The notes below the pieces were generated by a model, which saw nothing but the letters and a program-made list of their open reading frames with translations, did no database searches and was not told where the DNA came from. From Candidatus Dormiibacterota bacterium (GTDB taxonomy: Bacteria > Vulcanimicrobiota > Vulcanimicrobiia > Vulcanimicrobiales > Vulcanimicrobiaceae), in contig DATKRS010000009.1 of the NCBI GenBank assembly GCA_035532035.1, forward strand, positions 1-64,000: a DNA stretch of 64,000 nt, written 5' to 3'. Numbering within the stretch: the first letter of the stretch is position 1; the number at the start of each line of letters is the position of its first letter. This document shows, one piece after another, positions 18,827-23,005 of this stretch. The position numbers were made by a program, and so were the translations under genes.

Positions 18827-19897
18827 ATGAGCAAGCAGCGCGTCGTCGCGGCGATGAGCGGCGGCGTCGACTCCGCGGTCGCAGCCGGCCTTTTGGTGGA
18901 ATCGGGCTACGACGTCGTGGGCGTGACGATGAAGATGTACGAGCCCACGCGGCCCGCGCATGCGAAAAGCTGTTGCGGCGTCGACGACTTCGACGACGCG
19001 CGCGCGAGCGCCGCGGCATTGGGGATTCCGCATTACGTCCTCGATTTCAAGGAGGCGTTCCGTCGCGGGGTCGTCGCGCGTTTCGTCGACGACTACGTGC
19101 ACGGGCGCACGCCGAACCCGTGCGTCTCGTGCAACAACTACGTGAAGCTTGGAACGCTCGCGCGCTACGCCCGGCAGCTCGGCGCGGCACACGTTGCAAC
19201 CGGGCACTACGCGCGCCTCGAGCATCGCGTCGACGGCCCGCATCTCTTCCGCAACGCGCACGAAAAGGACCAGGCGTATGCGCTCGCGCAGGTGTCGCCC
19301 GAGCAGCTTTCGATGCTGCTTCTGCCGCTCGGAGAGCTCGATAAGCCGGCGACGCGGGCGCACGCGCGCAGGCTGGGCCTACCGGTGCACGACAAACGAG
19401 AGTCGCAAGACATCTGCTTCGTCGAAGGCGGCGACTACCGCGATCTGCTCGCACGCTTGAACCCCGGCATTGATCGCCGCGGCGACGTCGTGAACGCGGG
19501 CGGAGATCGCGTGGGAACGCACGCCGGCGTCGCGCGCTACACGATCGGCCAGCGCGCCCGAATTGCCGATGCAGGCAGCGCGCGATACGTCACGCGCATC
19601 GACGCGGCGTCGAACACGATAACGATCGGGCGGGAGGAAGAGCTGCTCTCCGGCGCGCTCGTCGCCCGCGAGGTCAGCCTCATACGGCCGGAGCGTTTGC
19701 GCGAGCGGCAGACACCGGTCCGCGCGATGATCCGCTATCGCGCCGCCCCGGTCGCGGCCCAGGCAAGCATAGACGGCGACCGGCTCGAACTCGCCTTCGA
19801 GGCGCCGCAGCGAGCCGTCGCGCCCGGGCAGCTCGTCGCGCTCCTGGACTGCGGCACTGACGAAGTGCTGGGAGGCGCAACGATCGCCGCGAAGTAG
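18827..19897 (+). CDS. mnmA: tRNA 2-thiouridylase MnmA
   Basis: Thiolates uridine-34 of Lys, Glu and Gln tRNAs using ATP and a sulfur relay. PP-loop [13 protein letters not shown] near residue 11, [27 protein letters not shown] with the first catalytic Cys, TGHYAR, KDQAYAL and the second catalytic Cys in SQDICFV are all present. Length of 356 residues is typical. The ATG at 18827 is divergent from the rodZ-like gene with 45 bases between. Five bases after its stop begins the serpin gene, so the two may share a transcript although no functional link is known. Confidence 0.96.
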
Positions 19898-19902
19898 ACG
19901 GC

Positions 19903-21057
19903 ATGAAGCGCTTGCTCGTCCTCACGGCCGCCGTGTGCTGCCTCGGTGCCGCCGCCCCCGCCAACTACAACGCCTTCGGTATTGCCGTGCTCCAACGGCT
20001 CGCGGGGCAATCGCACGCCGAAAATGTCTTCCTATCGCCGGTGAGCCTCGGCATCGCCTTGGCGATGGCCGCCGACGGCGCTGCGGGAAGCACCCGTACG
20101 GCGATTCTGCACGCGCTCGCATTGCGCGCTACGGACGTCGCGCCGGCGAATGCGGCGCTTATCGCCTCGCTCGAATCGAATTCCGACGCCCGCGTCGGCA
20201 TCGCGAACGCGATCTGGCTGCGGCAGGATATCCCGCCGAGCTCGCGTTACGTCGCATTGCTTCGACGCGGCTATCGAGCCGAGGCGCGAGCCGTGCACTT
20301 CGGCGACCCGTCGGCCGCGCAGGCCATCAATGCGTGGACGCGCGCGCATACCCTCGGGTTGATCGACCACATCGTCGACAGCACGAGCCCGATGGATTTC
20401 GCCTACCTCACGAATGCACTCGCCTTCAAAGCCGACTGGACGGCACCGTTCGATCGCGGCGAGACGAGCCGCCAGCCGTTCACCGATGCAGACGGCACGA
20501 AGCACGACGTGCAGATGATGATGCAACGCGCAACGTTTCGAACCGCCGATCTGCCGACGTTTCGCGTCCTGCGCCTTCCCTACGGTAAGAACGGCGGCTA
20601 CGCAGCGTACATTCTTCTGCCGAACGGCAAGGACGCCGCGGCGCTCGTGCGCGGCCTCAGCGCCTCGGCCTTCGATCACGCGCTTCGCGCGCTGCGCGCC
20701 GAAGACGTTCGCGTCGGGCTACCGCGCTTCACCGCGGAGTACCAAGCGCAGCTCGAGCCGCTCCTAGAAGCGATGGGCATGGGCGTCGCCTTCAGTCGCA
20801 ATGCCGACTTCTCGCCGATGCATCCACCGGCCGGTACGATTCGCCTCGGAAGCGTCGTTCACAAGACCTACGTGCGCGTGGACGAGCAAGGAACCACGGC
20901 GGCTGCGGCGACGTCCGTCGAGATGCGGATGACGTCGGTCATGATGCCTCCGGCGCGCACGTTCATCGTCGACCACCCGTTCGTGATGGCGCTGCGCGAC
21001 GAGCGCACCGGCGCGCTCCTCTTCATCGGCGTCATCAACACGGTGCCTCACACGTAA
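19903..21057 (+). CDS. secreted serpin (serine protease inhibitor)
   Basis: 384 residues with a signal peptide (LLVLTAAVCCLGAAAPA) and a complete serpin fold: NVFLSPVSLGIALAMAADGA, FAYLTNALAFKADW, LPYGKNGGYAAYILLPNG, and the C-terminal FIVDHPFVMALRDERTGALLFIGVI. The reactive loop hinge EQGTTAAAATSV (about 328-339) has the small-residue P15-P9 run needed for insertion, so it is probably inhibitory. By counting from the hinge, P1-P1' falls near Thr344-Ser345 in VEMRMTSV. Bacterial serpins are patchily distributed. Likely targets are host or neighbour proteases, or stray endogenous ones outside the cell. Confidence 0.93.
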   Translation: MKRLLVLTAAVCCLGAAAPANYNAFGIAVLQRLAGQSHAENVFLSPVSLGIALAMAADGAAGSTRTAILHALALRATDVAPANAALIASLESNSDARVGIANAIWLRQDIPPSSRYVALLRRGYRAEARAVHFGDPSAAQAINAWTRAHTLGLIDHIVDSTSPMDFAYLTNALAFKADWTAPFDRGETSRQPFTDADGTKHDVQMMMQRATFRTADLPTFRVLRLPYGKNGGYAAYILLPNGKDAAALVRGLSASAFDHALRALRAEDVRVGLPRFTAEYQAQLEPLLEAMGMGVAFSRNADFSPMHPPAGTIRLGSVVHKTYVRVDEQGTTAAAATSVEMRMTSVMMPPARTFIVDHPFVMALRDERTGALLFIGVINTVPHT

Positions 21058-21061
21058 GCGG

Positions 21062-21101
21062 CCGGAGACGGGAATGCGCCTAAGTCCGACAGGACCCTAG
21101 G
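21062..21101 (+). repeat. 40-base dispersed repeat, copy B
   Basis: 36 of 40 bases equal 17458-17497. Lies in the 39-base gap between the convergent serpin and mqnC genes and covers the last bases of mqnC. Confidence 0.75.
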
Positions 21102-22179
21102 CCGTGGCGAGCGCGTAGTCGGAGCGGATGTTCCAGTACGTGTCGCGGATCGCCGGAACGAAGCCGGCCTCGCGGATGGCTTCCTCTAGATCGCGGCGCG
21201 ACGCTTCGTTGGTGTTCCCTGCGTCGTGCACGACTTGCTCTTCGATGATCGTGCCGCCCATGTCGTCGCAGCCGTAGAAGAGCGCGAGCTGCCCCATCTT
21301 CAAGCCCGGCGTCAGCCACGACGCCTGCAGGTGCGGCACGTTGTCGAGGTAGAGTCGCGAGATCGCAAGGACGCGCAAGTACTCCAGACCCGTTGCTTCC
21401 TTGCCGCGCAGCGGCGTCTTGAACGGGATGTAATACCACGGAATGAAGGCGGTGAAGCCCTGCATCTCGTCTTGAAGTTCGCGCACGACGTGGAGGTGCT
21501 CGATGCGCTCTTCCGCGGTTTCGATCGAACCGAACATCATCGTCGCGGTCGTCGGCATTCCGAGACGTTGCGCCTCGCGCATGACGCCGAGCCATTCCTC
21601 CGGTTTCACCTTGCGTGCCGAAATACGCTTGCGAACGCGCTCGACGAGGATCTCCGCCCCCGCGCCGGGGAGCGACTTCATGCCCGCAGCTTTCAAGCGG
21701 CGAAGAATCTCGGGAACCGGCATCTCTTCGATTCGCGCCAAGCCCACGATCTCCGAGACCGAGAGCGAGTGGAGATCCACGTGCGGAAACTCGGCCCGCA
21801 CGCGCGCGAAGAGTTGCTCGAACCACGCGATGCGCAGCTCAGGGTTGACGCCGCCTTGAATCATGATCTGCGTCGCACCTTGGTCCGCGGCGTGCCGCAC
21901 GCGCGCGATCACCTCGTCGTGCGACATCGTGTAGCCTTCGTTGTGATGCTCGGGTCGAAAGAAGGCGCAGAAGGTGCAGTGCACGTTGCAGACGTTGGTG
22001 TAGTTCACGGTCGTGTCGATGACGTACGTCACGACATTCGAGGGATGGAGCTGCATGCGCCGCGCGTGCGCTGCGGCGCCGAGCGCGTGAAGGTCGGCGT
22101 CGTGGTAGAGCGCGACGCCTTCGTCGAAGCTCAAGCGCCCGCCGGACGCCGCGCGGTCTAGCAGATCATGCAGGGACAC
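21097..22179 (-). CDS. mqnC: cyclic dehypoxanthine futalosine synthase MqnC
   Basis: Radical-SAM enzyme of the futalosine menaquinone pathway; it cyclises dehypoxanthine futalosine. The TxNYTNVCNVHCTFCAF segment carries the CX3CX2C cluster motif. IQGGVNPEL, HSLSVSEI, SLPGAGAEIL, TTATMMFGSIET, GFTAFIPWYYIP and GCDDMGGTIIEE are MqnC-like and separate it from MqnE. Start is the GTG at 22179, with GGAGG seven bases upstream; the longer frame is not conserved in style. It overlaps the mqnA stop by 14 bases and ends the ftsK-mqn series. Confidence 0.93.
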   Translation of the reverse strand: MSLHDLLDRAASGGRLSFDEGVALYHDADLHALGAAAHARRMQLHPSNVVTYVIDTTVNYTNVCNVHCTFCAFFRPEHHNEGYTMSHDEVIARVRHAADQGATQIMIQGGVNPELRIAWFEQLFARVRAEFPHVDLHSLSVSEIVGLARIEEMPVPEILRRLKAAGMKSLPGAGAEILVERVRKRISARKVKPEEWLGVMREAQRLGMPTTATMMFGSIETAEERIEHLHVVRELQDEMQGFTAFIPWYYIPFKTPLRGKEATGLEYLRVLAISRLYLDNVPHLQASWLTPGLKMGQLALFYGCDDMGGTIIEEQVVHDAGNTNEASRRDLEEAIREAGFVPAIRDTYWNIRSDYALATA

Positions 22180-23005
22180 CGATCGCCTCCGGAAAGACGG
22201 GCGGCATATGCTCGATGGCGCCGATCGCAAGCAGCTCGCGGCAGAATGCCTCCAAGCCGCACTGCGCTGCAAAATGGAACGTGAAGTTCAGCTTGCCGTA
22301 ATACTCCTCGTAGAAGCCCGTCGGGCGCGGGTAGGCACGCTGCGCCTGCGCGAGCACGAACTCCATGTGCGAACGCGACCACGTGTACGCATCGGTCAAT
22401 GCGTGCATGCAGTCGCGCACGCCTTGCGGCTCGCGATCGTAGACGTCGCGGCGCGCCGCCCAAACCGCAAAGACCGTCTGCTGCCGCGTCCACTCGTGCC
22501 AGAGGCTGCCCAGGTCGTATACGTTCTCCCGCGGCAGCGAGAGCAGCGCGTCGATCGCCCGATCGCCGATGAGCAGCGCGGGGCACCCATTTGCCGCGTC
22601 CGCCAAGGGGTCGGCGCTCTCTTCGTACGCCGGATGCACGCCGAATCGGCGTTCGAGTAGGACGCGCAGGAGGTTCGCGCCGCTGGCCGACTCGCGCGTC
22701 ACGGCGATGCGCGCGCCGTCGAGCTGCTCGAGCGGCCGCTGCGAGACGAGAACCACCGATACGACCTCGTCGCGCGCGCCGATGCAGAGATCGGGCAACA
22801 GGACGAGCTCGCCGGCGTGCCGCGCCCATGCGAACGCCGAAATAGGGCTCACGTCGAGCTCTCCGGCGAGCAGCATGGCATTCAAACGCGCCGGCACGTC
22901 CGCATGCAGCGTGCCCGGATACGGAATCGCCCCCGCGTCGAACGCGGCGTAGATCGGAAGGTCGTTCGTGTAGCAGATGCGTCCGCAGCGTAGCGTCATC
23001 GTCAT
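22166..23005 (-). CDS. mqnA: chorismate dehydratase MqnA
   Basis: First committed step of the futalosine pathway: removal of water from chorismate to give 3-enolpyruvyl-benzoate. The periplasmic-binding-protein-like fold is recognisable from CGRICYTNDLPIYAAFD at the start, then DVSPISAFAWARH, VTRESASGANLLRVLL, LLIGDRAI and the YDLGSLWHEWT motif. 279 residues is normal. The ATG at 23005 overlaps the TGA of mqnE as ATGA. Its place between mqnE and mqnC supports the assignment. Confidence 0.93.
   Translation of the reverse strand: MTMTLRCGRICYTNDLPIYAAFDAGAIPYPGTLHADVPARLNAMLLAGELDVSPISAFAWARHAGELVLLPDLCIGARDEVVSVVLVSQRPLEQLDGARIAVTRESASGANLLRVLLERRFGVHPAYEESADPLADAANGCPALLIGDRAIDALLSLPRENVYDLGSLWHEWTRQQTVFAVWAARRDVYDREPQGVRDCMHALTDAYTWSRSHMEFVLAQAQRAYPRPTGFYEEYYGKLNFTFHFAAQCGLEAFCRELLAIGAIEHMPPVFPEAIGVPA

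Follow-up and report, generated by a model that had tools for sequence, protein, structure and literature searches.

The window, that is, the whole stretch of 64,000 nucleotides that was analyzed, carries at 19903–21057 (+) an ATG-initiated open reading frame for a serpin of 384 amino acids, lying between two housekeeping genes. Upstream is mnmA at 18827–19897 (+), recognized by the NCBIfam models NF001138 and TIGR00420 above their cut-offs; it ends at 19897 and hence, as the first-pass annotation had stated, five bases before the serpin, with which it is possibly co-transcribed. Downstream, mqnC at 21097–22272 (−), recognized by TIGR03699 above its cut-off, is convergent with the serpin and closes the slot. 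No protease gene lies beside the serpin. The serpin frame is open, and its composition (GC 66.4%, GC3 82%) is close to that of mnmA (GC 68.7%, GC3 84%), so the gene has no marks of decay.

The ORF matches the serpin family PF00079 (MEROPS I4) far above chance, with an E-value of 2e-91, 307 bits against a Pfam cut-off of 27, and coverage of profile positions 2–367 of 370, which agrees with the earlier description of a full serpin. A scan of Pfam and NCBIfam at E 0.001 gave no family besides PF00079. Among solved structures, the best relative is miropin (PDB 5ncs, E 1.2e-59), followed by tengpin (PDB 2vh4, E 1.8e-44). In an alignment of 13 serpins, the invariant residues include S45, P46, S48, N171, H320, E328, G330, T331, P359, and F360, which would correspond to shutter and hinge residues of antitrypsin; S45, S48, N171, and H320 are presumably the shutter residues Ser53, Ser56, Asn186, and His334. 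An AlphaFold model built from an alignment of three sequences only (the window serpin and its homologues at L074 and L075) had a mean pLDDT of 35, with 0 residues at 70 or above.

The first 20 residues (19903–19962, +) resemble a signal peptide by inspection: MKRLLVLTAAVCCLGAAAPA, followed by NYN, comprises two basic residues (K2, R3), a hydrophobic core, and Ala-x-Ala exit sites. The core is the most hydrophobic nine-residue segment in the whole serpin (hydropathy 2.80), and no lipobox was seen by eye in the N-terminus. The same signal-like pattern was found by inspection in 13/13 readable orthologs and paralogs of the clade, the window serpin included; in G110, the serpin start is interrupted by unresolved bases, with a signal-like start just ahead of them. 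By inspection and hydropathy, the N-terminus thus fits the signal peptide proposed in the first-pass annotation, and the protein would be exported by the Sec route.

The hinge, EQGTTAAAAT (P17–P8, residues 328–337), is encoded at 20884–20913 (+). The published consensus for the inhibitory hinge, P17–P9, is ExGTEAAAA with x being E, K, or R (PMC8233489). The corresponding EQGTTAAAA of the window has the Glu, the Gly, the Thr, and the run of small residues, and departs at P16 (Gln) and P13 (Thr). Ten orthologs, including the window serpin, have a readable loop (those of G110 and G116 end before P1), and in all of them P17 and P15–P8 are invariant, P16 being the only exception within the hinge. 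Counting 14 residues from the P15 Gly, in gapless register with miropin, places the predicted reactive bond P1–P1' at Thr344–Ser345 (20932–20937, +), the bond that had been proposed before. P1 is Thr in 9/10 loops and Ala in one (G115), while P1' is Ala in 9/10 and Ser in the window serpin alone. The flanks vary, P3 being more variable than 97% of the protein columns and P4' than 93%; Arg342 at P3 is shared by the window serpin and G113 only among the 10 loops. The first-pass annotation had named a hinge not conserved in close homologues, or a signal peptide not predicted, as grounds against its reading; the hinge and the N-terminal signal (the latter read by eye) are both retained in close homologues, so that neither ground tells against it. 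In the sister genus g33, serpins occur as tandem pairs in G102 (L043) and G100 (L044), with Leu at P1 in one copy and Thr in the other, which suggests that the copies divide their targets; a Leu at P1 in the second copy might be expected if the copies specialize.

The mnmA–serpin order is kept in all five other serpin-bearing congeners (G110, G111, G113, G115, and G116), and mqnC is visible past the serpin in three of them, the other two contigs ending inside the serpin. A tblastn survey of 18 mnmA loci from 17 of 18 genomes found no serpin between mnmA and mqnC in any of the 13 other loci showing both genes, congener G114 among them; the remaining five loci were uninformative. G112 could not be used as a case of serpin loss, mnmA itself not being found there. 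On the mnmA tree, with loci lacking a visible serpin scored as empty, the slot changed state twice, and gain and loss were not separable. In g33, related serpins (54–61% identity) are located elsewhere, for instance directly after an M17 aminopeptidase gene in G106, and the serpin appears to have moved either to the mnmA slot or away from it. In one genus of this uncultured phylum, then, the serpin has become established next to housekeeping genes. Compared with the five congeners, MnmA is 76–83% identical and the serpin 56–80%, indicating that the serpin evolves faster.

Close homologues were found in Candidatus Eremiobacterota at L074 (80% identity) and L075 (57%). PF00079 matches occur in 47/149 genomes of Eremiobacterota, the phylum of the window, and in 28/85 of the better genomes, a few of the 47 having a hinge-less or partial match. 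With the window protein as query, a different one from PF00079, 99/388 relatives gave a match: 46 belong to the phylum, and the other 53 come from the 239 sampled genomes outside it. Serpins are therefore patchy and not rare, which refines the earlier phrase "sporadic in bacteria." A peptide-pattern scan for close relatives returned none in viral contigs and two loci in genome contigs, both of Eremiobacterota. In addition, two unannotated phage records from human faeces (MT835510.1 and MT835777.1) have serpin-like stretches with 30–32% identity and more than 90% coverage. A literature search with thin coverage of subscription journals found nothing on serpins in Eremiobacterota beyond a passing co-mention in one paper, which deals with antibiotics and the gut of animals.

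In a FastTree phylogeny of 106 serpins, the window serpin and 12 others of its family form a clade with top local support, beside further members of that family; genus g1 does not form one clade within these 13. Rooted on vertebrate SerpinB1, the tree puts it in a larger clade of 67 of the 106 rows together with miropin (tengpin is absent from the tree); 8gxv and both vertebrate serpins lie outside that clade. With moderate support at the deeper nodes and a number of long rows, the tree is firm for the near placement alone. A recent acquisition from a eukaryote is extremely improbable, disfavored by this placement apart from the vertebrate serpins (the only two eukaryotic sequences in the tree), by the same synteny in five congeners, and by a composition near that of mnmA.

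Several serpin-like proteins without the canonical hinge were met alongside. The genome of the window itself encodes two short ones at L002:1483-2451 (−) and L003:1483-2436 (−), and G104 a third at L053:1998-3323 (−), of 322, 317, and up to 441 amino acids, respectively; the N-terminus is signal-like in L002 and L003. The match to serpins extends over the C-terminal half (hhalign E 3.9e-11, 97%); all three lack the Ala-rich hinge and are probably degenerate non-inhibitory serpins. The one on contig C12 lies between a 600-amino-acid lipoprotein-like protein and a secretin, and that of L053 adjoins a secretin-like ORF (by eye). A profile built from the three matched these and a weak G058 relative with an in-frame stop, and 11 further genomes weakly, mostly at serpin C-termini. 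C12 also carries the remnant of a second serpin (L159:14722-14850, +), with an in-frame stop and 49% identity to residues 16–58 of the window serpin. In family f1, to which the window serpin belongs, the serpins of L045, L048, L049, L051, and L052 lack the canonical hinge (e.g., VNERGAQTAVASV), have long branches in the tree, and make up a probable non-inhibitory lineage or lineages. That some bacterial serpins of the same family lack the hinge is what would recommend a non-inhibitory role as carrier, chaperone, or storage protein for the window serpin too. With the hinge retained in 10/10 orthologous loops and P1 conserved in nine, such a role is highly improbable.

The gene encodes an ordinary serpin, probably a functional protease trap that is exported. 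At a probability of roughly 0.7, going by its sequence, the product is an exported inhibitory serpin acting as a suicide trap for a serine protease tolerant of a small residue at P1. After translation from the mnmA transcript, the protein would leave the cytoplasm by the Sec route, take up the metastable fold, and offer its loop as bait; a protease accepting a small P1 would attack Thr344–Ser345, and the acyl-enzyme would be trapped and distorted as the Ala-rich hinge enters sheet A. Trapping of the acyl-enzyme by hinge insertion is the established mechanism of serpins. Elastase, subtilisin, and alpha-lytic protease accept small P1 residues. The likeliest targets would be extracellular or envelope proteases of elastase-, subtilisin-, or alpha-lytic-like preference, coming from competitors or predators of the same habitat or from the secreted set of the cell itself, and an elastase- or subtilisin-like target, as proposed in the first-pass annotation, is plausible.

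For bacterial serpins in general, the natural targets have been called "elusive" (PMC10090351) and the role "enigmatic" (PMC8233489). Miropin is reported in reviews to inhibit neutrophil elastase and subtilisin, and a Clostridium thermocellum serpin to inhibit subtilisin. In the siropins, which are also bacterial serpins, the reported cuts by neutrophil elastase and proteinase 3 fall at P3–P2 and P6–P5, away from the predicted P1, and neither subtilisin nor pancreatic elastase was inhibited; the P1 residue alone thus does not settle the target. Co-occurrence with proteases was ruled out as a clue: Peptidase_S8 matches are present in 145/149 and Trypsin matches in 143/149 genomes of the phylum, a near-universal presence that cannot tie the serpin to either family.

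A serpin with a more dedicated setting was seen on the Rhizobium indicum plasmid NZ_CP054023.1 (L197:2742-12504), and also in L198, L199, L200, and L201. Its row comprises a DUF4384 protein with an OmpA domain, a caspase-family protein, a trypsin-caspase-DUF4384 protein of 843 amino acids, the serpin, and a Ser/Thr kinase, followed in L197 by a retron-type reverse transcriptase; the domains are from a Pfam scan of this one record. All five genes are annotated in 4/5 records examined, and the Neorhizobium record has the caspase, DUF4384, and trypsin-like genes, a serpin match that is unannotated and split in two, and a different gene where the kinase would stand. In the 4/4 records read, the trypsin-caspase protein has a signal-like N-terminus and the specificity-pocket Asp (DACQGDSGGP), and the serpin loop has Arg-Ser. 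Among plasmid records matching this serpin, 88/103 are from Rhizobium. The row resembles a proteolytic cascade that is exported together with a brake of its own, is possibly related to defense, and offers a possible picture of a dedicated serpin in bacteria; the same literature search found nothing on a caspase/trypsin-like/serpin operon in Rhizobium.

The main competing account is that the window serpin chiefly restrains the envelope proteases of its own cell (HtrA-type S1 or secreted S8) and not foreign ones. This is a live rival, though an unlikely one: the genome has five S8 and two S1 matches, the Rhizobium serpins adjoin their likely target, and the C. thermocellum serpin is suggested to act on the subtilisin of its own species, but S8 and S1 are near universal in the phylum against serpins in 47/149 genomes, and the neighbors are mnmA and mqnC. 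No dedicated partner lies beside the window serpin, unlike in Rhizobium, which favors a foreign or dispersed target. Slightly less probable still is a broad inhibitor that uses several loop bonds, including Arg342–Met343 for trypsin-like enzymes; miropin is reported to use differing cleavage sites in its loop, and Arg342 occurs at P3 in G113 as well, yet it is missing from the other eight orthologous loops. A trap baited at Thr344–Ser345 for a small-P1 protease remains the preferred reading.

The Thr at P1 also recurs outside the phylum. With P1 again located 14 residues from the P15 Gly, it was present in 14/30 loops of a first set from other phyla and in 10/19 of a second set (20 serpins, one being dropped for lack of the hinge pattern), including six of the 10 loops from families new to the first set. 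With one loop per family in the other phyla, P1 was Thr in 20/37, compared with 13/481 residues elsewhere in P7–P7' (Fisher 1e-17, a value to be read with the families as non-independent draws and the idea as one that came from the first set itself). A dozen or so further matches, if not more, lie outside these counts, being weaker, partial, or second ones. P1 was another residue in 17/37 families, and P1' was Ser or Ala in 29/37. By tree position, Thr occupied P1 in 34/64 serpins of the miropin-containing clade (21/44 without the family of the window) and in 3/31 of the remaining serpins; within the phylum, it was rare outside families f1 and f3 (3/30). The P1 of the window serpin is thus the commonest one of the sampled serpins from other phyla, a hint that the enzymes they target may be of a similar kind. 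Our tentative generalization, held at less than even odds, is that bacterial serpins on the miropin side have one favored bait bond, Thr-(Ser/Ala) at P1–P1', retained in many phyla even as the loop residues on either side drift. If true, the bait position would be under purifying selection, the window serpin would represent the typical case, and the common enemy would be one widespread class of proteases with a small S1 pocket, e.g., bacteriolytic enzymes of alpha-lytic or subtilisin type, to which the search for targets could be narrowed. In animal serpins, P1 is variable. The preference for Thr at P1 across bacteria is new in this analysis, a consensus of this kind not having been found in a literature search that covered subscription journals thinly (a weak negative), and the generalization deserves a proper test.

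Among known bacterial serpins, miropin from Tannerella forsythia is the closest in loop architecture, aligning without gaps from the hinge to P1', matching in loop length as far as the PF motif, and carrying Thr-Ser at the same P1–P1' as the window serpin. The two differ in that miropin is distant in sequence, comes from a human oral bacterium, and has Lys at P2 against Met in the window; its Thr369–Ser370 is reportedly the bond for elastase and subtilisin. Tengpin, the second-best solved relative, is likewise bacterial. Most group T prokaryotic serpins, to which tengpin belongs, were judged inhibitory by sequence (Spence et al., 2021; PMC8233489). The window serpin, which falls with miropin and apart from the vertebrate serpins in the 106-serpin tree, may be a member of this group. 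Chloropin resembles the window serpin in being a bacterial inhibitory serpin described as secreted, and differs in its P1 Arg and in acting best against thrombin-like proteases (PMC10090351); 8gxv, which is probably chloropin, lies in a different part of the 106-serpin tree.
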